A DNA stretch of 64,000 bases from Syntrophobacterales bacterium (lineage in GTDB: Bacteria; Desulfobacterota; Syntrophobacteria; Syntrophobacterales; Thermodesulforhabdaceae): the NCBI GenBank assembly GCA_026417655.1, contig JAOACS010000014.1, forward strand, positions 62,001 through 126,000, in the 5' to 3' direction. Shown here one piece after another: positions 24,206-36,466 of this stretch (position 1 is its first letter; each line of letters starts with the position of its first letter). The position numbers were made by a program, and so were the translations under genes. The notes beneath the pieces were generated by a model. That model saw only the letters and a program-made list of their open reading frames with translations. It did no database searches and was not told the DNA's origin.

Positions 24206-25030
24206 ATGAATCCCTCTTTAGATTCTACTTTGAGTAATTTCTTGGAGTCACTCTTCTTAAAAATCTCCTTTAAAAAGGAAAATCTTTGGATCTCCCTGGT
24301 TAAGAAGGCTTCACCTTTGGTGTTTCACCTGGGGATCGCTATAACAGTTATTAATTTATTTCTTTTTCTGTCGCTTGCGATACGGTTGAAGAGTCTTGAT
24401 ACCATGTTTGTCTTGGCAATTTTGGTAGCCCTATATCCGGTATTTTTCTTTAGTTGGAGAAATATTCTAGATTTGCTAGAAAAGGAACTTAGCTATCAAA
24501 AGGATTTTACGCTCCCGGATCCATTACGAAAATCCATAGGTGCAATCCTTTTAGGCCTTTCCTTCGCTACTTTATTTGGTGGACTTTTGTGGGGTATTTC
24601 CTCAGGAAACGTAATTGTAGTAGTCTCAGGTGTGCTTGGGGCATTCCTTTTTTATCAGTGGTTTTCCGCCATGTTTTATCCTTCCACAATAGGAATTTCT
24701 TTTAGGGATGCTTCTTTCGATGAGACTCCTTTAGTTTTCCTCGATTGGTTAATTTTAAAACTCTTGGTGTTTTATCTATTTATAGTTGAGCTATCTGTGA
24801 TAGGAATGGCCGTCACACCCTTTGTAATTATCGTGGATCTTATTCGTGCATGGAGTGTTAAATCTCCGAGGGTAATTTATGAAATGGCTCTAATCCATCA
24901 GGGAATATGGGTTGGATCCCTTATGTTTCCTGTAATAGGTTATTTTATGTTTCAAGGGTGGGTTTTTGTATGGAATCTTCCAAAGAGGATATGGATTAAA
25001 TCGAAGGAGGACATCAATGAAAAATCATAG
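24206..25030 (+). CDS. Uncharacterised multi-span membrane protein
   Basis: A 274-residue protein with roughly six hydrophobic segments (near residues 38-62, 66-84, 108-130, 134-152, 185-208 and 232-255) and no recognised family. Short charged segments separate the helices, and there is no signal peptide or catalytic motif. AAGGAG stands before the ATG. Its last 14 nt overlap the start of the TPR lipoprotein gene, which ties it to the following run of exported proteins; it may be their inner-membrane component. Function unknown. Confidence 0.7.
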   Translation: MNPSLDSTLSNFLESLFLKISFKKENLWISLVKKASPLVFHLGIAITVINLFLFLSLAIRLKSLDTMFVLAILVALYPVFFFSWRNILDLLEKELSYQKDFTLPDPLRKSIGAILLGLSFATLFGGLLWGISSGNVIVVVSGVLGAFLFYQWFSAMFYPSTIGISFRDASFDETPLVFLDWLILKLLVFYLFIVELSVIGMAVTPFVIIVDLIRAWSVKSPRVIYEMALIHQGIWVGSLMFPVIGYFMFQGWVFVWNLPKRIWIKSKEDINEKS

Positions 25031-25682
25031 AATGATAAGGTTTTTGTTAGTTTGTGTTGTGTTATCTGGACTTATGGCCTGTGTTCCGCCACCTCCACCC
25101 CCTACTCCTCCTACACCTACCGCGGAAGATCATTTTAGAAGTGGTCTATCCTACTTTAAAGACGGCTATTTCGACAGTGCGATTTCCTCCTTTCAAGCGG
25201 CCATTGGACTGAGACCTAATTACACTGAGGCTTACTACTATCTTGGACAGTCCTACGAGAAAAAGAATATGGTTGATAAAGCTGAGGCAGCCTATCGGGA
25301 TGCTATTAGAACGAATCCACGCTATCTAGAAGCTCATGAGGCTCTAGGACTTCTTCTTTTCCGGCTTAACCGATTCCCCGAGGCGAAGCCAGAACTTGAG
25401 ATGGCGGTGAATTTGGGTTCCGTCTCTCCTGAGGTCTATACAAAGCTTGGTGAAATTTACCTTGCTGAGCGACAGTGTCAAAGAGCTATAGACATGTTTA
25501 AAAAGGCTCTTTCACTTAATTCCAATTTTTATCCAGCTCAGGACGGCCTGAAACGGGCTCAGGCTATTTGTAAGGTGCCTGGCAGTGGATATAAACCACC
25601 TACGGATGGTGACAAGAGAGGAACAAAGAAGCTAAGAACTTTCCAAGGGGGAGGAAAGGCTATTAGCCCAGAGGAGTTCTAA
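25017..25682 (+). CDS. TPR-repeat lipoprotein
   Basis: A 221-residue lipoprotein. Residues 1-21 form a signal peptide ending in the lipobox LMAC, with lipidation at Cys22, followed by a proline-rich linker (PPPPPPTPPTP). From about residue 38 there are four tetratricopeptide repeats, for example AISSFQAAIGLRPNYTEAYY, AEAAYRDAIRTNPRYLEAHE and AIDMFKKALSLNSNFYPA. TPR domains are protein-binding scaffolds. The ATG at 25017 has AAGGAGG five bases upstream. It lies at the start of the exported-protein run and could assemble the other members at the membrane. Confidence 0.85.
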   Translation: MKNHRMIRFLLVCVVLSGLMACVPPPPPPTPPTPTAEDHFRSGLSYFKDGYFDSAISSFQAAIGLRPNYTEAYYYLGQSYEKKNMVDKAEAAYRDAIRTNPRYLEAHEALGLLLFRLNRFPEAKPELEMAVNLGSVSPEVYTKLGEIYLAERQCQRAIDMFKKALSLNSNFYPAQDGLKRAQAICKVPGSGYKPPTDGDKRGTKKLRTFQGGGKAISPEEF

Positions 25683-25718
25683 TTAACTCCCTTGGGGTTC
25701 TAAAAGGAAGGAGAAAGA

Positions 25719-26348
25719 GTGACAGTCAAAGGGAGAAAAGTTCTAGTCCTAAGTATCGTAGCCTTATTTTTGGTTTTAGGTTCTGGGTCTCTTCTTGCTG
25801 ACCAAAAGGAGCTAATGGATGAGTGGGCTAGACACAAAAGGCAGATCACTGAAAAGATCGTAACCAAACTTCGACAGGAGGGTAAGCTTCCCCAGTATGG
25901 GACAATTGAATTTACGGCTCGAGTTAAACCTCTTCCCTCTGGTGAATTAGAAGTTACTGTCGATAGCCTTAAGGTTTATCCCAAAGAAGGAGTAAAATCT
26001 TCTGGCCCAACAGTAGTAAGGACTACTCAAGACGAAGAGGTAGCTCGTAAGTTCCAGGAGATATTTCGACCTAGAAATCCCTCTCCTTATTGGACTACGG
26101 GAACTATTGATATTATTGGAGGTGCTACAACTTCAGCAAATATTCGTATGGAAAAACCCCTAGATAAAACATTTACTGGCAGTCCGGAAGAAAGCCCTAA
26201 TAGTAGCGATGCTGGATCAAAGGAGAAACTTGTAGCCCTTTCGGAAGAATCTAGCAAGAAGGAGTCACAGGACGAAAGGGGAACCACGGGATGGTGGAGT
26301 AAGTTTTTAAATTGGTTGTTAGGCAAATCTTATGAAGGAGGTAAGTAA
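25719..26348 (+). CDS. Secreted protein of unknown function
   Basis: A 209-residue protein starting with GTG at 25719 and a good AAGGAGG-type ribosome-binding site. A signal peptide is evident (KVLVLSIVALFLVLGSGSLLA, residues about 7-27). The mature part begins DQKELMDEWARHKRQI, and a beta-rich middle has a TonB-C/energy-transducer-like look (GTIEFTARVKPLPSGELEVT), but no family is firmly recognised. The C-terminus is serine- and charge-rich, with a final WWSKFLNWLLGKSYEGGK. The stop overlaps the next ATG by one base (TAATG). Periplasmic location is inferred; role unknown. Confidence 0.7.
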   Translation: MTVKGRKVLVLSIVALFLVLGSGSLLADQKELMDEWARHKRQITEKIVTKLRQEGKLPQYGTIEFTARVKPLPSGELEVTVDSLKVYPKEGVKSSGPTVVRTTQDEEVARKFQEIFRPRNPSPYWTTGTIDIIGGATTSANIRMEKPLDKTFTGSPEESPNSSDAGSKEKLVALSEESSKKESQDERGTTGWWSKFLNWLLGKSYEGGK

Positions 26349-27247
26349 TGAGAAGTAGACCCCTTTTAACTCTAGCGATAATTTTAATAGCAAGTGTTTT
26401 AATTAGCATAGATCTTTGGGCCGGGGGTAATCGCCAGCTCATGTCTGAAAAGATGGCAGAACAAGATCTTAAGCGTAACATCGTTGAGATGGTAATTGGA
26501 TATAAGGTTCATAGCGAGGGACAGTTTGGTCTTACCGAAGAGGCCGCCTATAGAATCCAACAAAAGGCAGGAGCCCTTATTAAGGGTATCCACGTAGAAA
26601 AGATGATCTATGATAAGGATAAGGATATCGCCTTTTGCACGGGATACATTGACCTTGGCGATGTAATAAATGTTGCCGGAGAAAGAATGTCCTTCAAAAA
26701 TGTCAGAGTTCACGCCTATGGCTTCGGAACAATGACTCCCGAATCTAAACCACCTCTTATGGCGCTGCGCGCTGCCCTTGTTAATGCCTATGATGAAATG
26801 GCTGCTAAGATCGTTGGAGAAAGAATTATGAGCGCCAGTGAGGTAGAGAATTTCATTCTTACTAAGGATATTAACCGATCGAGAGTTCTTGCTGCTGTCT
26901 ATGGATCTTATATTCCCAACGTTGACATTGACAGTCCTAACCGTGGATGGGGTTGGGATGAGTCGGGAAATGCCTTCGTGAGACTTCAGCTTGATGTAAG
27001 AAAGGTTCGAGATATTCTTGGCCAAAGAATCAGATATGAAGGACCCAATATAGTTGAGGTCATAGGCCGCGGGGCTCAGACCGATGAGCTCCGAAAAGCA
27101 TCTGAAGGTGCTCCGGGTGGGACAAAAGTAGAGCGAACCGAATACCGTTCCCTCCCTGTTCCCACCGGAGCCGATAGAGAATTAAAGGGTGCTCCAGCTC
27201 CCCCAGTTGTTCCTACAAGTCCGGTTCCAGAGAAAAAAGAACAATAA
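26348..27247 (+). CDS. LPP20-like secreted protein
   Basis: A 299-residue exported protein with an N-terminal signal (about residues 1-25, LLTLAIILIASVLISIDLWA). The region from about residue 118 (YGFGTMTPES, then MALRAALVNAYDEMAAKIVG and the later NAFVRLQLDVRKVRD) follows the LPP20 pattern of alanine-rich helix plus closing strands seen in FlgP and related envelope proteins. The last 60 residues are proline-rich and low-complexity. No lipobox is present. A hairpin at 27263-27290 separates it from the FlgT-like gene. Family call is by pattern and not certain. Confidence 0.55.
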   Translation: MRSRPLLTLAIILIASVLISIDLWAGGNRQLMSEKMAEQDLKRNIVEMVIGYKVHSEGQFGLTEEAAYRIQQKAGALIKGIHVEKMIYDKDKDIAFCTGYIDLGDVINVAGERMSFKNVRVHAYGFGTMTPESKPPLMALRAALVNAYDEMAAKIVGERIMSASEVENFILTKDINRSRVLAAVYGSYIPNVDIDSPNRGWGWDESGNAFVRLQLDVRKVRDILGQRIRYEGPNIVEVIGRGAQTDELRKASEGAPGGTKVERTEYRSLPVPTGADRELKGAPAPPVVPTSPVPEKKEQ

Positions 27248-27262
27248 ATTTTCAACTATATA

Positions 27263-27290
27263 CTCCCCGCCTAACTCTGGAGGCGGGGGG
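27263..27290 (+). terminator. GC-rich hairpin between exported-protein genes
   Basis: CCCCGCCT (27265-27272) pairs with AGGCGGGG (27281-27288) and extends by one G-T and one C-G pair to a 10-bp stem with an 8-base loop. The sequence after it is TTAGAAATTTT, only partly T-rich. It may reduce rather than stop read-through into the FlgT-like gene 26 nt later. Confidence 0.5.
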
Positions 27291-27315
27291 TTAGAAATTT
27301 TAGTGGAGTGAAAAC

Positions 27316-28677
27316 ATGGCTGTTGATCTCCTGGGAAGAGTCTTTGTAACAATATCTTTTCTAGCTTCCATTTTTGTACATTCAGTTGAGGCAAAGGGTG
27401 AACTTTCTATTAAACCTGCCACTATAATTGTATCGGCCGAGGGGTTGTCCGATCCTAACTTCTATAAAGATAAAACCCTTGCTTACGATGAGGCCCTACG
27501 TGATGCCAAAAGACAGGCCATAGAAAAAGCTGTTGGATGTTATGTCTCTTCCCAGACTATTGTTGAGAATTATACCCTGGTTCGTGATCAGGTCATATCT
27601 AAGAGCGAAGGGGTGATTTCTAAAATTATTAATGTAGTAAACGGTGGTATTCAAGAGGATGGCTTTTACCATGTATGGATCAAAGCAGAGGTCTTTACCG
27701 CTCCGATAAGGCAAGTAGTATCATCCCTTTCCAAGCTTGAAAGAATGTCCCTTATAAGGGAAAAGGGTAATCCGACCTTTTCTGTGGGGCTTTTTATAGT
27801 ATCTCCTGACTCATACGGGGATAGGATCCCCTGTGAGGTATGTAATAGGGAGATCGCAAACAGATTAAAAAATTTTGGTTACAAGGTTATTTCGGAAGAG
27901 GAGGCCTCTAAGGAACTCCAAGAACGAGTGAAATTGCTTGTGGCTCAAGGACTCACTAGAGAAGCGGCCACCCAGATCGCAAAAAAGCCTAGTGATATCT
28001 CTATAAATGGTCTGATTAAGCTTCGCCGTTCTCAAAGGGTAAAGCTATCGAGTGGGATTGAAGTTCAGACTACACTTCTTACGGCTTGGTCGATTGAAGC
28101 TGTTGATAACCATTCTTCTGAGGTCATATTCTCAGAAAATTTTAGACCTCAACAGGGAGTTATATATAACGATGAAGATGAGGCTATAATGGATGTGGGT
28201 AAAAGGGTGGGTGATATTTTTAGTCAGGATATTTTTAAAGATTATATCATGAGACCCACTCATGATATAATTCTCACTTTTTCAGGTATTCCCGACAGGG
28301 AACTCGCCAAGATGATGAAAAAGGAGCTTTTGGGCATTCGCTCCGTTTTAAATGTTACTTTCCGTGAATTTCTTGCCAATGGAGATACTGTTTTTGAAGT
28401 AGAGTTTGCAGGTCCCCGGGATCAGCTTGCCGATATCTTGGATGGTGTTGTTCTTAAGGCTTTGAACAGTAAATATGGAGAAAGGACCTTCGTTATTCAG
28501 GAAGAAAGGGGTGATATTGTCAAGATCAAGGTTGACAAGCCAAGGGCTCTATCGAGGGAAAAACTTGAAGAAGGGGTTCCCACACAGCTTGTGAGTAATG
28601 TTAGTTCCGAAAGAGTTCGGGAGATCATAAAGAGTCCGGAGCTTTCGGAAAAGTACAAAAATGTTCTTGATCTCTAA
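27316..28677 (+). CDS. FlgT N-domain-like secreted protein
   Basis: A 453-residue protein with a signal peptide (about residues 1-26, ending VEAKGE). After it, YDEALRDAKRQAIEKAVGCY with the following SSQTIVENYTLVRDQVISKS matches the FlgT N-terminal/LPP20-type module: alanine-rich helix then a V-x-N-x-x-L-x-x-D-x-I strand. The middle part (about 150-300) resembles the second, CsgG-like part of such proteins (IANRLKNFGYKVIS). The C-terminus has no recognised domain. FlgT builds the flagellar H-ring in Vibrio, but the same fold occurs in non-flagellar envelope proteins. Family call moderate; role open. Confidence 0.6.
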   Translation: MAVDLLGRVFVTISFLASIFVHSVEAKGELSIKPATIIVSAEGLSDPNFYKDKTLAYDEALRDAKRQAIEKAVGCYVSSQTIVENYTLVRDQVISKSEGVISKIINVVNGGIQEDGFYHVWIKAEVFTAPIRQVVSSLSKLERMSLIREKGNPTFSVGLFIVSPDSYGDRIPCEVCNREIANRLKNFGYKVISEEEASKELQERVKLLVAQGLTREAATQIAKKPSDISINGLIKLRRSQRVKLSSGIEVQTTLLTAWSIEAVDNHSSEVIFSENFRPQQGVIYNDEDEAIMDVGKRVGDIFSQDIFKDYIMRPTHDIILTFSGIPDRELAKMMKKELLGIRSVLNVTFREFLANGDTVFEVEFAGPRDQLADILDGVVLKALNSKYGERTFVIQEERGDIVKIKVDKPRALSREKLEEGVPTQLVSNVSSERVREIIKSPELSEKYKNVLDL

Positions 28678-28693
28678 ATGTGGAGGGAGGCTT

Positions 28694-29155
28694 ATGTGGT
28701 TTAGAAAAGTTGTTTCCTCGGCTGTGGTGATAACTTTTACTATTGTGATGTTTGGATGTGCTACAACACCTCAGGGTCAACAGGAACAACAGGCGGCTCT
28801 TACAGGAGGTGCAATAGGGGCTGTTACAGGTGGTGTTATAGGGTATCTCGTTGGTGGAGAGAAGGGTGCTGCCATAGGGGCGTTAGCTGGGGCAGCCTTA
28901 GGAGCTCTTTCTGCTTGGGCTATAGAAAAGCGAAATCAGGCTATGCGCGAAGCAGCCCTTCGAAACAAGCCAATAGTCATTGTGAAGGAAGACAAAACCG
29001 AAAAGGTTATTGCGGAACCGGTTGAGGGTGGCAAGATTGAGGAAGAGGGCGGTAAAAAATACCGCAAAGTTAAGGTAAGAACCTATAAGGTAGATCCTAA
29101 GACTAAGAAAGAGGAGATTACGAGCGATACTATAGAAAGAGTGCCTCTTGAATAA
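28694..29155 (+). CDS. Glycine-zipper lipoprotein
   Basis: A 153-residue lipoprotein with signal peptide and lipobox MFGC (Cys22). Residues 38-75 form a glycine-zipper hairpin (GGAIGAVTGGVIGYLVGG then GAAIGALAGAALGALSAW) that could insert into or oligomerise in a membrane. The rest is hydrophilic and beta-rich (KYRKVKVRTYKVDPKTKKEE). ATG 28694 has GGAGGGAGG upstream; an in-frame start at 28661 lies inside the previous gene and would destroy the lipoprotein signal. Glycine-zipper lipoproteins (SlyB/OsmB type) are outer-membrane associated; exact partner unknown. Confidence 0.8.
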   Translation: MWFRKVVSSAVVITFTIVMFGCATTPQGQQEQQAALTGGAIGAVTGGVIGYLVGGEKGAAIGALAGAALGALSAWAIEKRNQAMREAALRNKPIVIVKEDKTEKVIAEPVEGGKIEEEGGKKYRKVKVRTYKVDPKTKKEEITSDTIERVPLE

Positions 29156-29213
29156 GACACTCTCAAGATGGCCAGATGATTGGTGTAAAAATAGGGTGCA
29201 GGTGCCTTAGGGT

Positions 29214-29939
29214 ATGAAAAAGTCTTATATAATGGTTTTTATTTGCCTATTGGGTATAACTACTGTAGGGAAGGTGTTAGCTCAATGTCCTAAAGAATTA
29301 GGTGGCAAAAAGGTTGCTGTCATTGTAGGTAGTAGCTCGGCCGATGTTACACCAGATCTCATTAAAGATATTGAGACAATCTTTGAAAATCAACTTTTGG
29401 GCGTTGGATTCCAGGTCATTAACCAGTCTCTAGTTGAAAAAATTATTCCTGAACAGGAGAAACAACTTTTACTTAGAGGAGACACCGTAGGAGCTGTAAA
29501 GCTTTCTGAAAAGCTTGGAGCCGATCTCCTTTTCGTAAGTCAACTGTCTGTTAGGACAAGCCCTATTGAGGGGGTGAAAACGAATTTAAAATCCGTATAT
29601 GTTACTTTGGGCTTAAAGCTTCTTTCTGCTAAGACCGCTCAAGCGATTTCATCAAAGACGTGGACAGGTAAGTCCGCAGGTAGTGAAATCTCGAAAACAA
29701 CGCTAGGACTTGTTGAAAAAAACTCCGAGGTATTAACCCGTGCTATATATGAAGAATATTGTCAAAGGGGAGCGGTTGCCCTTTCAGTTGGATCTAGTAG
29801 CCCTTCGACGTCATCCCGACTCTCTGGTGAAAAAGAAGGGAGTGTTCCTTCAGCTGAAGGCCCTGGTGAGGTTCCTACTAGAGAGGGACCTAAGAATGAA
29901 ATAACTCCTAAGCCGTCCACAAACCTTGAGAATCTATAA
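29214..29939 (+). CDS. CsgG/FlgO-like secreted protein
   Basis: A 241-residue exported protein with a signal peptide (about residues 1-23, ending VLAQ). The body has the pattern of CsgG/FlgO-type modules: KKVAVIVGSSSADVTPDL, FENQLLGVGFQVINQSLVEK, AVKLSEKLGADLLFVSQLSV and a strand KSVYVTLGLKLLSAKTAQAI followed by an S-x-x-W segment. This fold is also known from LpoB and TolB N-domains. The C-terminus is a low-complexity serine/proline tail. Its place between the glycine-zipper lipoprotein and the WD40-caspase gene suggests a shared envelope complex. Family call is by fold pattern. Confidence 0.55.
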   Translation: MKKSYIMVFICLLGITTVGKVLAQCPKELGGKKVAVIVGSSSADVTPDLIKDIETIFENQLLGVGFQVINQSLVEKIIPEQEKQLLLRGDTVGAVKLSEKLGADLLFVSQLSVRTSPIEGVKTNLKSVYVTLGLKLLSAKTAQAISSKTWTGKSAGSEISKTTLGLVEKNSEVLTRAIYEEYCQRGAVALSVGSSSPSTSSRLSGEKEGSVPSAEGPGEVPTREGPKNEITPKPSTNLENL

Positions 29940-29960
29940 AATTTTGGGGGGTTATAAGGT

Positions 29961-32894
29961 ATGAGAAGTAAGAGGTGGATATGGCTCATAATTCTTACAT
30001 GCCTTGTTTCCACTTCCCTATCTTTAGCTAATCAACCCTCTTCTGAGCCAATCTTGAAGATCCACTCTCCAACGCATACTGCGAGCATTCGTAAGGTAAA
30101 AAGCGACCTCCTCGGGACATATTTAGTGACGGCCTCCTATGATCAGACAGTAAAGGTATGGGATGCCTCTACAGGTGATGTCCTATCTACCCTGCATCCC
30201 CCCATAGGGGATGGTAATGAAGGTAAGATATATGCGGCCGCTCTGTCTTCTGATGGGAAGCATGTTGCCTGTGGAGGATTTACTGGAAAACAGTGGGATG
30301 GAAAGTTTGCAGTCTATATCTTCGATTGGCATTCGGGAAGTATGATTCGTCGTCTTGGAGGTCTTCCTGAGGCTATATTGGATATCGCCTATTCTCCCAA
30401 TGGTAAATATCTTGTGGTAGCTCTTGCAAAAAAGCAGGGCATTAGGGTTTATAATGCCGAAAACTATGGTGTTGTTTTTGAGGACTTTCATTATGGTGGA
30501 TCGGCTTACGGTGTGGATTTTGACAAAAAGGGACGTCTTACCGTTGTATCCGACGATGGTTTTATTCGCCTCTATGATAGTAATCTTTCCCTTGTTGCAA
30601 AGCAAAAGACCTCTGGGAAAGCACCTTTTTCTGTAGCCTTTAATCAGGATGGTTCTCTCATTGCTGTTGGTTATATGGACATTGCTAAGGTGGATATTTT
30701 CTCAGGAGAGAACTTAAAATTATTATTTTCTCCATCAACCCAGGGTATTTCTAGTGGAAATCTTAGTAGTGTAGCCTGGTTAAGTAATGGAAATCTTTGT
30801 GCGGCAGGAAGATGGAGCCTCTCTAATGGGATCAATCCTATTAGATGCTGGGAAAATGGTGGCAAAGGTCCCTATAGGGATATTTCTACTGGCAGTCGAG
30901 ACACTATCCTTGGTCTTAAGGCTCTTCCCGGTAACCAGTTGGTATTCATTTCAGGTGATCCTTCCGTTGGTAAGATAGGTAAAGACGGCTCGGTGGTTTT
31001 TATGCATTCTCCAACAAACGCCGATTTTAGAGACAAACAGGATGATTTTCTGATAAATGCCGATGGTTCTCAGGTGGTATTTGGATTTTTTTGGTCAGAT
31101 ACCAACGCTAAGGGCTTGTTTTCTATAAGTGAACGCTTTCTCGAAGTTAATCCTAAGAAGATGGATGGCTTTAAACCCCCCATTACCAAGGGGCTTCCTG
31201 TCACCAATTGGAAAGGTAGTGACAAACCCCTTTTCAGAGATAAGCCAATACCCCTAGATCCCTACGAAAGGAGTTACTGTTTAGCAATAAGCCCTGATCT
31301 TCAGGGGTTTGTAATAGGGTCGGAGTGGTCTTTACGGTTATTCGATTCTAATGGTGTTCAGAAATGGAAGGTAACGGCTCCTTCGCCTGTTAGAGCAGTA
31401 AATATTACCTCCGATAGACGTATTGTGGTAGCTGCCTATGCTGATGGAACGATACGATGGCATCGTCTAAGGGACGGTACACTAGTTATGAGCCTTTTCT
31501 TTATTCCCAAAACAGGACAATGGGTTTTGTGGGCTCCTTCGGGCTACTATGATGCATCAGCTGGAGCAGAAGACTATATTGGATGGCACATTAACCGTGG
31601 GACTGACAAGGAGGCGGATTTTTTCCCCATCTCTAGATTTAGATCCGTTTACTATCGCCCTGATCTTCCCACGGCTCTAATTAAAACTCTTGATGAGAAA
31701 GAGGCTCTTCGGTTTGCTGAAAAGGAATGGGGAAGAAGTGCAAGAGATGTCAAGCCTACAGAGGTCCTTCCACCTGTCGTCCGGATCCTAAGTCCTCCTA
31801 AGAATTATGAAACCGATTCTAAGGAACTTAAAATGAAGATCTCTCTTCGCTCGCCTTCTAATGCCCCAGTAAGATCAGTTAAGGTGTTAATAGATGGAAG
31901 ACCGGTCAGAGTGGAGGAGGGTGAATGGGCTGCCGGAGAGGAGGTAACCCGTGAAATTACGATACCACTAGAGCCGAGAGAACAATCTATTTCTGTGATC
32001 GCCATAAATAAATATGGAGCTAGTGAGCCTTCAATTATAAGGGTTTCTTACGGCACGAAGGTGGGCAAGGCCGACGCTTTTCCTGAAGAAAAACCAACCG
32101 CCATTCTCCTTATGCCAAAACTTTACATTTTGGCTGTTGGGGTCGGTAAATATCCAAATGAGGAAATGAAACTTCTTTTCCCTGCTAAGGATGCTCAGGA
32201 CTTTGTAAAAACTATGGAAAGTCAGAAGGGAAAACTTTACCGCGATGTGGTAGCAAAAATATTGATTGATGAAAAGGCGACTCGTGAAAATATAGTTGAT
32301 GGACTTGAATGGATCCGGAAGGAGACTACAGCCCGAGATGTAGCCATGATATTTCTTGCCGGTCACGGGTTTACAGACAATCGTAACCAGGTTTATTATT
32401 ATATGCCTATTGATGCTAATCCTGACAAACTTATGGGAACCGCTGTTTCGGCTAAAACATTACAAGAGACAATTTCATCAATCCCTGGCAAAGTCATCCT
32501 TTTCCTGGATACCTGTTATGCTGCCAATGTTCTTGGTGGTAAGGCTGCAAGGGGACTCGCGGTAGGAGCGACGAACGATGTTATAGGTGTTGCTAATGAG
32601 TTGAGTAGTTCGGAAAATGGAGCTGTAGTATTTGCTTCATCTTTCAAGACTCAGAAATCCTTTGAATCGCCCGATTGGGGCAATGGAGCCTTTACCAAAG
32701 CCCTCATAGAAGGTATTTCTGGGAAAGCGGATCTTATGGGAAAGGGTAAGGTGACGATAAAAACTCTTGAGATATATATATCCGATAGAGTAAAGGATTT
32801 GACGAAGGGAGATCAAACACCGGTGATTCAAGCTCCAGAAAAAACAGATAAGGGTATAGTGGATTTTCCCATTGCTGTTGTAGAAAAAATCTAA
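29961..32894 (+). CDS. Exported WD40-repeat caspase-family protease
   Basis: A 977-residue protein: signal peptide (about 1-23, SLSLANQ); WD40 propeller (about 30-520, with the textbook blade YLVTASYDQTVKVWDASTGD); a bridging GYYDASAGAEDYIGWHINRG segment typical of bacterial WD40-caspases; an Ig-like domain (about 600-690, VRSVKVLIDGRPV); and a C14 caspase domain (about 715-970). The catalytic dyad is intact: His802 in FLAGHGFTDNR and Cys852 in FLDTCYAANVLGG. It should be a periplasmic or surface peptidase. It lies in a run of lipoproteins and CsgG/LPP20-like proteins, whose assembly it may sense or cut. Confidence 0.93.
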   Translation: MRSKRWIWLIILTCLVSTSLSLANQPSSEPILKIHSPTHTASIRKVKSDLLGTYLVTASYDQTVKVWDASTGDVLSTLHPPIGDGNEGKIYAAALSSDGKHVACGGFTGKQWDGKFAVYIFDWHSGSMIRRLGGLPEAILDIAYSPNGKYLVVALAKKQGIRVYNAENYGVVFEDFHYGGSAYGVDFDKKGRLTVVSDDGFIRLYDSNLSLVAKQKTSGKAPFSVAFNQDGSLIAVGYMDIAKVDIFSGENLKLLFSPSTQGISSGNLSSVAWLSNGNLCAAGRWSLSNGINPIRCWENGGKGPYRDISTGSRDTILGLKALPGNQLVFISGDPSVGKIGKDGSVVFMHSPTNADFRDKQDDFLINADGSQVVFGFFWSDTNAKGLFSISERFLEVNPKKMDGFKPPITKGLPVTNWKGSDKPLFRDKPIPLDPYERSYCLAISPDLQGFVIGSEWSLRLFDSNGVQKWKVTAPSPVRAVNITSDRRIVVAAYADGTIRWHRLRDGTLVMSLFFIPKTGQWVLWAPSGYYDASAGAEDYIGWHINRGTDKEADFFPISRFRSVYYRPDLPTALIKTLDEKEALRFAEKEWGRSARDVKPTEVLPPVVRILSPPKNYETDSKELKMKISLRSPSNAPVRSVKVLIDGRPVRVEEGEWAAGEEVTREITIPLEPREQSISVIAINKYGASEPSIIRVSYGTKVGKADAFPEEKPTAILLMPKLYILAVGVGKYPNEEMKLLFPAKDAQDFVKTMESQKGKLYRDVVAKILIDEKATRENIVDGLEWIRKETTARDVAMIFLAGHGFTDNRNQVYYYMPIDANPDKLMGTAVSAKTLQETISSIPGKVILFLDTCYAANVLGGKAARGLAVGATNDVIGVANELSSSENGAVVFASSFKTQKSFESPDWGNGAFTKALIEGISGKADLMGKGKVTIKTLEIYISDRVKDLTKGDQTPVIQAPEKTDKGIVDFPIAVVEKI

Positions 32895-32932
32895 GTGGTG
32901 CCATCTTAATTCTTTGGGTGGGGGAAGGTATA

Positions 32933-34354
32933 ATGAAAAGATCTTTGTTGATAGTTTTTATCATCTTTTTTTCGTTTTTTGTATTGTTAGTCCAAAAAGC
33001 TAAAGCAGATTGTGAAGAGGCAAAAAAAATATTTGTCCAAAGTCTTAACGAAGGGGACGTAGATAGAAGGATTCAGCTTTTGGTAAAAGCGGTTACTGAC
33101 TGTCCCGATTTTGCTGAAGCCTATAATAATCTTGGACTGGCCTTTGAAGAAAAGAACCTTTTTAATGAAGCACTTGACGCTTACCGTAAGGCCTCAGAAA
33201 TAAAACCGAATTTCCCTCATCCTTTCGCCGGCATGGGCGATATTTATAGGAAACAGGAAAAATATGGTGAAGCGATCAAAATGTATCGTCGATTTCTCGA
33301 TCTTTCGGCGTCTAAAGAAGTTCGCCAGAGGTATCCTGATGTGGCTAACTACGTTTCTATAATAGAAAAAAACCTTAAAGCCTGTGAGGCCAAATTGAAT
33401 CCTCAGGAGAAACAAAAGGTGGAATCTGAGGAGCTTGAGGATTCTGATCAAATTGTGACGGCTAAGGCCATTACAGAAGCTCTTACCAAAAAAACGAGAG
33501 GTATAAGTGCAGGCTCTAGCATTCCTATAAAAATCCATTTTGCCACAAACAGTGCAGCTATTTCTCCCAAGTCTCATAGACAACTAGAAGAAATTGCCCG
33601 TGCCTTGAATGAACCAGTCCTGGCTTCATCAAAAATTCTCATTGAAGGACATACGGATAATGTAGGAAGTGATGCGTATAATTTGGAACTTTCTTCGAAA
33701 CGGGCAGAGAGCGTGAAAAGCTATCTCGTGGAAAAGTTCGGAATCGAAGCTAATCGTTTGGAGACCCGAGGTGTTGGTTCCTCGAGACCTGTGGCATCTA
33801 ATGATACCTCCTGGGGGAGAGCGCAGAATAGGAGAGTAGAGCTTGTAAACTTAGGTTCTATAAGTCAGGAAATTTCAAGGGAGGCTTCTAGGGGACAGGT
33901 GGCCCTAACCACAAATGAAAAGACTGTTGAACCTCCGAAGGAATCGATAAAGCTTGCTATTCTTGAGCTAGACTTTCTTGATCGCTCAGGACGTCAGGAT
34001 CCTATGGGTAGAATGATTTCCGAATTTCTTACCACGGCTTCCGTTGACAGTGGAAGGTTCAGTATCGTTGAGAGGAGTCTCCTGGAGAAGGTCATGAAGG
34101 AGCTAGAACTCGGTCAAAGCGGTATTGTTGAAGAAGGGAAGGCTAGAGAAATAGGGAAGATGGTAGGGGCTGGAGCTATCCTTACCGGTTCAGTAAGCCG
34201 CCTTGGAAACACTATGAGAATAGACATTAGACTCATAGACGTGGAGTCTGGTAAAATTATGGCGGCAGCAAATGAAATTACCGAAGGGGATCTCCAATCC
34301 TTATCTCGGGCTTGTAATATCTTGGTTCAGCGGATTATTGCTAAACTAAAATGA
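32933..34354 (+). CDS. TPR - OmpA-like - CsgG/FlgO-like fusion protein
   Basis: A 473-residue exported protein starting at ATG 32933 (GGGGGAAGG upstream) with a signal peptide ending about residue 24. Next come two to three TPR repeats (PDFAEAYNNLGLAFEEKNLF, about 35-145), then an OmpA-like peptidoglycan-binding domain (about 190-305: ILIEGHTDNVGSDAYNLELS, SKRAESVKSYL, RAQNRRVEL). A C-terminal CsgG/FlgO-type domain follows (about 330-470: KLAILELDFLDRSG, FSIVERSLLEKVMKEL, GAGAILTGSVSRLG, MRIDIRLIDVESGKI). It would tie the envelope complex to peptidoglycan. It is the last member of the run; its stop overlaps the ParB-like gene by 4 nt. Confidence 0.88.
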   Translation: MKRSLLIVFIIFFSFFVLLVQKAKADCEEAKKIFVQSLNEGDVDRRIQLLVKAVTDCPDFAEAYNNLGLAFEEKNLFNEALDAYRKASEIKPNFPHPFAGMGDIYRKQEKYGEAIKMYRRFLDLSASKEVRQRYPDVANYVSIIEKNLKACEAKLNPQEKQKVESEELEDSDQIVTAKAITEALTKKTRGISAGSSIPIKIHFATNSAAISPKSHRQLEEIARALNEPVLASSKILIEGHTDNVGSDAYNLELSSKRAESVKSYLVEKFGIEANRLETRGVGSSRPVASNDTSWGRAQNRRVELVNLGSISQEISREASRGQVALTTNEKTVEPPKESIKLAILELDFLDRSGRQDPMGRMISEFLTTASVDSGRFSIVERSLLEKVMKELELGQSGIVEEGKAREIGKMVGAGAILTGSVSRLGNTMRIDIRLIDVESGKIMAAANEITEGDLQSLSRACNILVQRIIAKLK

Positions 34355-35328
34355 TAGGCTGGGACAATGTGTTTTTTAAGTATCTCCTGCTGGAATCCAT
34401 TGAATCGGACGAGGATTTTAGACTAACTTCTACATATAATCCCCGCCTTTATTCTATCCTCAATATTTCTGGTATATTATCTCCTTTGTGGGTTTGGGAG
34501 ACTAGCAGTAATAGGCTGGTGCTCATAGATGGTTATAGTAGATATGGCTGGGCGAAGGGGACAGGTTGTTACACTTTACCCTGCCTTGTATTTCCTTCCT
34601 CCTTTTCCAAAGAAGAGCTTCTTAAAATGAGAATCCTTACGAAGTCCTCGGAATCTAATCTAAGCCTTGAGGAGAAAGCAAATATTGTTGAAAGACTTTT
34701 GAGGCTATACTCGGCCCGAGAAGTAGAGCGTAATTTCTTACCGCTTTTTAGTTTTCCATCAAAGCCAGGATTTTCTAAAGTAATTGTGGCCTTCACAAAA
34801 ACCTCAAAGGAATTTCGCTGTGCAGTGAGGGAGGGGATTATAGACGAGAGGATAGCCCTTGTATTAGCTACGTGGGATGAGGAATCCCGTCATGGGATGT
34901 TGAGGCTCCTAAAAAAACTTCGATGTTCTGTTAGTATTCAGCGAGAAATTTTAGAATCGGTTGAGGATCTTGGACGAGCAAAGAATATTCCCTATAGTGA
35001 GGTTTTAAGAGAGATAGAAGTAGTCTTAGGAGATCAGAATCTATCTCCTCGAGAGGGGACAGAGCGGGTTCGGCATTTTCTAAAGGCCCTATTGTTTCCC
35101 AATCTTATGGCGAGGAGAAATTCATTCGAGAAAACTCTAAAGAGCCTCGAATTACCTTATGGAGTAGAGCTTAAACCACCTGACCAATTTGAAGGAGATG
35201 AGTGGGAAATGAAGGTTCGATTCTCAAAACCCCAGGAACTCCTTGATAAACTTAAGATCTTTAATTCGAAGATCTCTATGGAGGTGCTTGATAAGATTTT
35301 TTATGGCGACCGACATAGATCCCTTTGA
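34351..35328 (+). CDS. ParB-N-like protein of unknown function
   Basis: A 325-residue soluble protein. Residues 40-75 (LSPLWVWETSSNRLVLIDGY then SRYGWAKGTG and LPCLVFP) look like the ParB/Srx nucleotide-binding fold, in which the D-G-x-x-R motif contacts phosphate. The helical rest (EEKANIVERLLRLYS, REGIIDERIALVLATWDEES) resembles the central ParB region, without a recognisable KorB/ParB C-terminal dimer domain. It starts in the ATGA overlap with the previous gene and overlaps the SPL-like gene by 26 nt. It pairs with that gene, not with a chromosome-partition ParA. DNA binding and any CTPase activity are inferred. Confidence 0.6.
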   Translation: MIGWDNVFFKYLLLESIESDEDFRLTSTYNPRLYSILNISGILSPLWVWETSSNRLVLIDGYSRYGWAKGTGCYTLPCLVFPSSFSKEELLKMRILTKSSESNLSLEEKANIVERLLRLYSAREVERNFLPLFSFPSKPGFSKVIVAFTKTSKEFRCAVREGIIDERIALVLATWDEESRHGMLRLLKKLRCSVSIQREILESVEDLGRAKNIPYSEVLREIEVVLGDQNLSPREGTERVRHFLKALLFPNLMARRNSFEKTLKSLELPYGVELKPPDQFEGDEWEMKVRFSKPQELLDKLKIFNSKISMEVLDKIFYGDRHRSL

Positions 35329-36466
35329 TGATGTTTTTGTTGAAGAGTCCGTAAGGGAAAGTCCCATTGTAAGGGAGCTTAGAAAGAATCTTCCCGAAGC
35401 TAGATTCTACTGTTTATCCTCCGAGCCCTGTTATAGAAACTCCCTTTCGGAAGATTTTTCGAAAAAACTTTACGTGATTCGCTTCAAAGGGCGTTTCTTG
35501 AGATCATGTCCTGCTACCCGTTTTTACCATTGTTGTGGATATACGATCCTCCACTTTGGAGAGCACTGCACAGTAGGATGCACGTATTGTATTTTACAAG
35601 CCTATCTAAATCAGCCCTATATTAAAATTTTTGGTAACTTAGAGGAGATGCTTTCTGAGGTAAAAGGTGTCCTCTTACAATACCCTCAGGTGCTCTTTAG
35701 AGTAGGGACAGGAGAGTTTACCGACTCCCTTTTACTCGATCCCTGGGCTGGTTACTCCTCCCATTTTGTGCCCCTTTTTGCCACAATTCCTAATGCTGTT
35801 CTAGAACTCAAAACAAAGACAGCCTTTGTAGATCGCCTCAAGGATCTTCCCCATGGGGGCCATACTATTGTTAGCTGGTCTCTCAACGCCCCTTCTATTA
35901 TGACTCAGGAGGAGGCAAATGCTGCTCCCTTTGAACTTCGTCTAGAATGCGCCAGAAGATGTCTTGAATGGGGTTATTTTCTCAGTTTTCATTTCGACCC
36001 TATCTTTTTTTTTCCGGGCTGGGAGAAGGAGTATGCCCTAGTGGTAAGAGAGCTTTTTGAAACTATCCCGCCGAGAAAGATTGTGTATATAAGCCTTGGA
36101 GCTTTCCGGTTTATGCCTGAACTAAAGGGGAGAATTCTCGAAAAGAATCCTACCTGGAAGTTTGCAAGTGGTGAATTCGTTCCATGTCCCGACGGAAAAA
36201 GACGGTATTTTGTCGATATTAGGGTGGGACTTTATAAATTCTTACTTGAGGCAATTCGATCTTACGCTCCTGATATTTGTGTTTATTTATGCATGGAGAG
36301 TGGCTCTGTGTGGAAGCGGGTTTTTGGATACAGTCCCGACGAGGTAGGAGGTCTTCCTAGGATACTCGATGATGCGGTAAGAAAAACGATGAAGGTTGGG
36401 ATGAACTGTCTTAACTCCGCTGCGTCACTATTTTTAAGAAAACCTCAGCCCTATTCCTCTATATGA
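35303..36466 (+). CDS. Spore-photoproduct-lyase-like radical SAM protein
   Basis: A 387-residue radical SAM protein with the cluster motif Cys89-x3-Cys93-x2-Cys96 in GEHCTVGCTYC, at almost the same position as in Bacillus SPL (90/94/97). Overall layout follows the SPL family (FYHCCGYTILHFGEHC, HFDPIFFFPGWEKEY). At the position where SPL carries its hydrogen-atom-donor cysteine 141, this protein reads FRVGTGEFTDSLLLD, with no cysteine in that stretch. DNA photoproduct repair is therefore not assured. The ATG at 35303 lies inside the ParB-like gene (26-nt overlap), implying coupled expression. Function unknown. Confidence 0.75.
   Translation: MATDIDPFDDVFVEESVRESPIVRELRKNLPEARFYCLSSEPCYRNSLSEDFSKKLYVIRFKGRFLRSCPATRFYHCCGYTILHFGEHCTVGCTYCILQAYLNQPYIKIFGNLEEMLSEVKGVLLQYPQVLFRVGTGEFTDSLLLDPWAGYSSHFVPLFATIPNAVLELKTKTAFVDRLKDLPHGGHTIVSWSLNAPSIMTQEEANAAPFELRLECARRCLEWGYFLSFHFDPIFFFPGWEKEYALVVRELFETIPPRKIVYISLGAFRFMPELKGRILEKNPTWKFASGEFVPCPDGKRRYFVDIRVGLYKFLLEAIRSYAPDICVYLCMESGSVWKRVFGYSPDEVGGLPRILDDAVRKTMKVGMNCLNSAASLFLRKPQPYSSI

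Follow-up and report, generated by a model that had tools for sequence, protein, structure and literature searches.

An exported WD40-caspase within an envelope gene module of FlgP-, FlgT- and FlgO-type domains in Thermodesulforhabdaceae

Bacterial caspases are mostly discussed as cytoplasmic death or defence agents. A 64,000-nucleotide stretch of a Thermodesulforhabdaceae genome (the window) encodes a caspase among envelope proteins, raising the question whether this protease is the centre of the gene set, a later recruit to it, or an independent enzyme sharing its operon. The initial annotation proposed an envelope operon built around the caspase. We compared the locus with other Desulfobacterota genomes and with caspase loci of other phyla.

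The nine-gene cassette and its proteins

Nine open reading frames (g1 to g9) occupy positions 24206-34354 of the window, all on the plus strand, as the initial annotation had described. The intergenic gaps from g1 to g9 are -17, 36, -1, 68, 13, 58, 21 and 38 bp (68 bp at most), and the preferable starts are ATG 25014 (g2), ATG 28691 (g6) and ATG 32933 (g9). Identical gene content and order were detected in four genomes representing three genera of Thermodesulforhabdaceae (G000, G001, G002, G003); the flanks differ in G002 and G003, and since the order is kept despite the different flanks, the arrangement is not due to chance. Every caspase-bearing member of the family has the nine-gene set (4/4), and G004, a member with a 97% complete genome, has neither the core genes described below nor the caspase. 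Membership of the nine genes in one operon was assigned from gene spacing alone; the genes remain closely spaced beyond g9, where g10 and then an SPL-like radical-SAM gene are found (34351-36466); next to the set this pair is confined, among the four genomes, to the same genus. The last 4 bp of g9 are shared with g10 (325 aa, no assigned function), and the SPL-family gene comes next. Promoter and terminator scans detected sites no more numerous than in shuffles. A plasmid-borne element was considered and rejected, as tblastn of g4 against a plasmid collection gave no match.

Export signals were found on eight of the nine proteins (g2 to g9) and recur in their orthologues, in agreement with the earlier statement that most carry signals or lipoboxes; they were judged by the hydrophobic core and conservation among orthologues. 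Five genes, g2, g3, g4, g5 and g7, form the core. The TPR lipoprotein g2 (25014-25682) has a Pfam TPR match and a lipobox (...LMAC), present in nearly all its orthologues. Its C-terminal tail, FxGGGxAI..(F/W) (25560-25682), is kept across the phylum, caspase present or not, and is also seen in the orthologues of loci L142, L143, L144, L165, L166 and L169; the g5 and g7 C-termini often read -(D/N)L or -NF. These C-terminal tails look like docking or sorting signals. The small secreted protein g3 (25719-26348), with a signal peptide conserved in orthologues, has no known domain and gave no match in the Pfam search.

The secreted FlgP/LPP20-type protein g4 (26348-27247) is the best conserved of the core (58-87% identity) and has two SHS2/FlgT_N-like domains, at about 26429-26596 and 26702-26908. 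A g4 profile searched against PDB returned five sequences at E<=1, all FlgP or FlgP-type lipoproteins (E 0.007-0.15). FlgP, FlgT and Lpp20 have a common SHS2-like fold, FlgP/FlgT-type domains are established ring formers, and ring formation among these proteins is associated with an insertion that comes after the SHS2 helix (PMC12222027); the g4/FlgP alignment runs without a gap through the segment past that helix. In the secreted FlgT-like protein g5 (27316-28677), a CsgG/FlgO-like middle domain comes after a FlgT_N-like domain (about 27418-27717). With a FlgT_N-type profile built from eight proteins, g4 and g5 both excluded, g5 scored 76 bits and g4 was matched twice. Relatives of g5 score above the Pfam cut-off for FlgT_N, some of them with a weak FlgO match as well; g5 itself has a weak LipL46 match, and it matches g7 in the CsgG/FlgO-like region. 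The predicted structure of g5 (pLDDT 46) was unusable, and hhalign of g4 against g5, with too few sequences, gave a probability of 3%. The secreted FlgO/LpoB/CsgG-fold protein g7 (29214-29939) has an orthologue in G001 that exceeds the Pfam LpoB cut-off, and its Cys25 and Cys183 are invariant within Thermodesulforhabdaceae.

Three further proteins are restricted to the Thermodesulforhabdaceae version of the cassette, each with orthologues in G001-G003. The polytopic membrane protein g1 (24206-25030, 274 aa), without a match in the Pfam search, is fast-evolving, its orthologues in the matching position being 24-47% identical. The glycine-zipper lipoprotein g6 (28691-29155) exceeds the Pfam Gly-zipper_Omp cut-off and has a lipobox-like signal (FGC/VGC/MGC). 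The secreted fusion protein g9 (32933-34354) matches Pfam TPR, OmpA (4.9e-26), CsgG (1.4e-14) and FlgO (1.9e-7), with the peptidoglycan-binding OmpA domain at about 33539-33832 and the CsgG/FlgO domain at about 33938-34279. The domain names proposed initially were thus confirmed by Pfam for g2, g6, g8 and g9; LPP20, FlgT-N and FlgO were not called by Pfam in the window proteins g4, g5 and g7 themselves, although the PDB FlgP matches, the FlgT_N-type profile and the LpoB orthologue speak for these labels.

The g8 gene (29961-32894) encodes an exported WD40-caspase of 977 aa, with a signal peptide, a beta-propeller region (residues ~31-515), an Ig-like region (~605-697) and a caspase domain (718-957). 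Pfam detected WD40 and Peptidase_C14 (PF00656, 3.3e-14; 53.6 bits against a curated cut-off of 21.4), and NCBIfam gave a caspase match of 3.4e-20. The catalytic His802 (codon 32364-32366, AGHG motif) and Cys852 (codon 32514-32516, D-x-C motif), both noted as intact in the initial annotation, are invariant among 53 diverse homologues, as are Asp744 and Asp850, which we take to be the expected acidic S1 pocket by analogy with metacaspases and which fit a cleavage after Arg or Lys. Judged from these residues, the exported g8 is catalytically intact and apparently an active protease. The AlphaFold model (mean pLDDT 89) comprises the propeller region, the Ig-like region and a complete caspase domain, and the top Foldseek matches are WD40 propeller structures, several of them double-propeller. 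A p20/p10 linker (residues 860-885, 32538-32615) is disordered (pLDDT below 50) and longer in Thermodesulforhabdaceae, as an insertion relative to other caspases; it contains Arg864, invariant in seven orthologues and a candidate self-cleavage site. The source genome has one gene of this type. When the caspase domain was used as a profile query against PDB, MCR phosphoethanolamine transferases ranked first, above metacaspases, through a short GHG-type segment; this was rejected as a chance match because the Pfam and NCBIfam caspase evidence is strong.

Core and caspase occur separately elsewhere

Searches with g4 and g5 profiles detected the core, whole or in large part, without the caspase in nine other Desulfobacterota genomes (G096, G020, G024, G322, G261, G430, G374, G234, G371). 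The g2, g4, g5 and g7 genes are present together in 8/9 of these loci and g3 in 6/9; G371 has g4, g5 and g7 only. No full-length WD40-caspase was found in these nine genomes, at the locus or genome-wide, and some of them gave caspase or WD40 matches, all shorter or partial. Every caspase-free core locus (9/9) is paired with another CsgG/LpoB-fold protein: a CsgG-like protein with a glycine-rich loop, its fold assigned by eye and without a Pfam match, in G020, G024, G322, G261, G430 and G371; an SH3-CsgG protein in G374 and G234; and an LpoB protein with a protein named COG3014-like by eye, beside the core, in G096. The distribution is patchy, with g4 in 14 of 395 genomes of the phylum (E<=1e-6; 12 strongly) and in 6 of 56 genomes of the class. 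In G374 g4 and g2 are separated by two transposase-like ORFs (L168:11871-13027), which are missing from the locus in its close relative G234 (L169). Both genomes also encode a 273-aa metacaspase ~3 kb from the core on the same strand (L168:16838-17659 and L169:14624-15445), which we treated as probably coincidental rather than as a core partner because it has no signal peptide and other ORFs, apparently for a transporter, intervene.

The full-length exported WD40-caspase was detected by the genome scan in 144 loci from many phyla. Only two of the 78 caspase-anchored loci examined have the nine-gene set, both from Thermodesulforhabdaceae (L044 of G003 and L052 of G002), and a core beside the caspase was not seen outside this family among these 78 loci. 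The recurrent neighbours of the other WD40-caspases are FecR-like proteins, CHASE2-cyclases, OmpA lipoproteins, glycine-zipper and FlgT_N-like proteins, at least one of the latter carrying DUF4384. FlgT_N-like proteins account for 10/314 genes near a caspase (within 2.5 kb) versus 1/317 far genes (Fisher p about 0.006, or about 0.02 excluding the two Thermodesulforhabdaceae loci). A secreted FlgT_N-like protein precedes the exported WD40-caspase in L100 (9105-14997), L042 (9070-12880), L048 and L113, and a CHASE2-type protein follows it in L100, L048 and L046; in L100 DUF4384 in the FlgT_N-like protein and the CHASE2-cyclase were confirmed. No description of this recurrent pair was found.

The presence of core alone and caspase alone elsewhere suggests separate histories and, most simply, one joining. 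The four Thermodesulforhabdaceae caspases form one clade (support 100) on a long stem (0.72), suggesting that the caspase joined an older envelope module once; its recruitment is well supported, and from the genomes compared only Thermodesulforhabdaceae appear to have added the caspase to the core. The proposal of an operon built around the caspase is therefore not upheld, the core existing without it and the caspase mostly without the core. The initial annotation had named caspase relatives lacking these neighbours in nearly all genomes as evidence against its view, and for the caspase at large this is what we found; within Thermodesulforhabdaceae, however, the link is strict. What it described as an exported envelope set is supported, including the lipoproteins, the OmpA domain that binds peptidoglycan and the catalytically intact caspase.

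A proposed scaffold with a recruited caspase, and its rivals

We give a probability of about one half to the reading that the cassette encodes an accessory periplasmic scaffold of FlgP/FlgT/FlgO type, outside the flagellar cluster, with a recruited caspase of Arg/Lys specificity that processes itself or a partner. The scaffold would be built by g4, g5 and g7, whose domain families also make up the outer rings or disks of some flagellar motors, and would be tied to the outer membrane via the lipoproteins g2 and g6 and to peptidoglycan via the OmpA domain of g9; these anchoring and scaffold steps are proposed because of the domains and signals of the proteins. The caspase would use its beta-propellers to dock on the scaffold and would process a partner or itself, the cleavage leading to maturation or remodelling of the complex. 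We infer the physical complex, the propeller docking and the cleavage of a partner after Arg or Lys, and by analogy with the flagellar proteins the scaffold may have the shape of a ring or disk. The most specific form of this proposal is put forward only tentatively: subunits of FlgP/FlgT/FlgO type would form a ring or disk machine at the outer membrane that is not flagellar, and a caspase dedicated to it, drawn from the widespread family of exported WD40-caspases, would control its assembly or disassembly in the periplasm.

The same domains could instead mark an accessory of the flagellar motor: an outer-membrane ring or disk comparable to FlgO/FlgP/FlgT of Vibrio or to the basal disk of Campylobacter. 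In this case g9 would take the place of the peptidoglycan anchor, and the caspase would remodel the disk or clear it away. The core includes one gene each of FlgP, FlgT and FlgO type (without a direct Pfam match), FlgI is present in most core-bearing genomes, and a flagellar hook cluster (recognised by eye from FlgD- and FlgE-like ORFs) begins at 61244-64003 of the window, ~27 kb downstream of the cassette. Linkage to flagella and co-occurrence with them were not found, however: the flagellated close relatives G004, G005 and G021 have FlgI and no core, whereas G234 (98% complete) has the core and neither FlgI nor a second FlhA-type gene (one FlhA-type gene, versus two in its congener G374), and the FlgI surroundings sampled in G000 and G003, on other contigs, contain no FlgP/FlgT/FlgO-type core genes. 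H. pylori Lpp20, of the same fold, is moreover not required for the motor disk (PMC11756786). The core is thus not a general flagellar part, a dedicated flagellar part was rejected as the main reading on account of the relatives and G234, and we consider the accessory role doubtful.

It is equally doubtful that g8 is a secreted protease acting independently of the other eight proteins, its place in the operon reflecting no more than, for instance, a common induction by envelope stress. WD40-caspases elsewhere, in dozens of loci of many phyla, work without these partners, so that g8 could have its own substrate, and the core in turn exists without the caspase. Yet the caspase stays inside the nine-gene block while the flanks change, the long stem of its clade fits adaptation to new partners, and FlgT_N-like genes are enriched beside related caspases. 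A defence or programmed-death system with the caspase as effector is very improbable: g8 matches the generic PADLOC caspase model (3.7e-10) and bacterial caspases act in defence elsewhere, but this caspase is exported, its neighbours are envelope proteins with no linked sensor, cytoplasmic defence gene or known defence partner, the gene content is stable rather than variable within Thermodesulforhabdaceae, and the ZorB-like PADLOC matches of g9 reflect its OmpA domain.

Relation to described systems

The scaffold with a recruited caspase, our preferred reading, consists of known domain families arranged in an undescribed module; in accordance with the initial annotation, our literature search found no paper describing this module or its exported caspase. 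As in the flagellar H-ring or basal disk (FlgO, FlgP, FlgT), FlgP/LPP20-, FlgT_N- and FlgO/LpoB-type domains occur together, all exported, in a set with a peptidoglycan anchor and lipoproteins. The cassette differs in lying outside the flagellar cluster, in its absence from flagellated relatives, in the additional TPR lipoprotein g2, secreted g3 and caspase, and in the two SHS2-type domains of g4. The LpoB/CsgG/COG3014-type outer-membrane lipoprotein loci share the CsgG/LpoB-fold subunits present in every version of the module, which adds FlgP-/FlgT-like subunits and, in Thermodesulforhabdaceae, the caspase and the TPR-OmpA-CsgG fusion.

The closest relatives of g8 in the literature are the WD40 metacaspases (orthocaspases; Asplund-Samuelsson 2012, PMC3501461), which share the Peptidase C14 His-Cys dyad, WD40 repeats, an N-terminal hydrophobic helix and, in some operons, OmpA or flagellar neighbours. 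In that survey WD40 was the additional domain met most often in bacterial metacaspases, signal peptides were suspected, and metacaspase operons were recorded, 16 with cell-surface functions (flagellar proteins included) and 14 with OmpA (PMC3501461). In contrast, g8 is exported, with propellers N-terminal to the caspase domain, and belongs to a fixed nine-gene envelope block absent from the survey.

The caspase-free core indicates an envelope module, not described before, in which domains of flagellar-ring type are employed away from the flagellar cluster, and the three states, core alone, caspase alone and both joined, can be compared as a before-and-after contrast. The joined state in Thermodesulforhabdaceae suggests a protease recruited to act on an envelope machine outside the cytoplasm, and the placement of a caspase within a periplasmic scaffold module would make a housekeeping or assembly role of caspases outside the cytoplasm directly testable.
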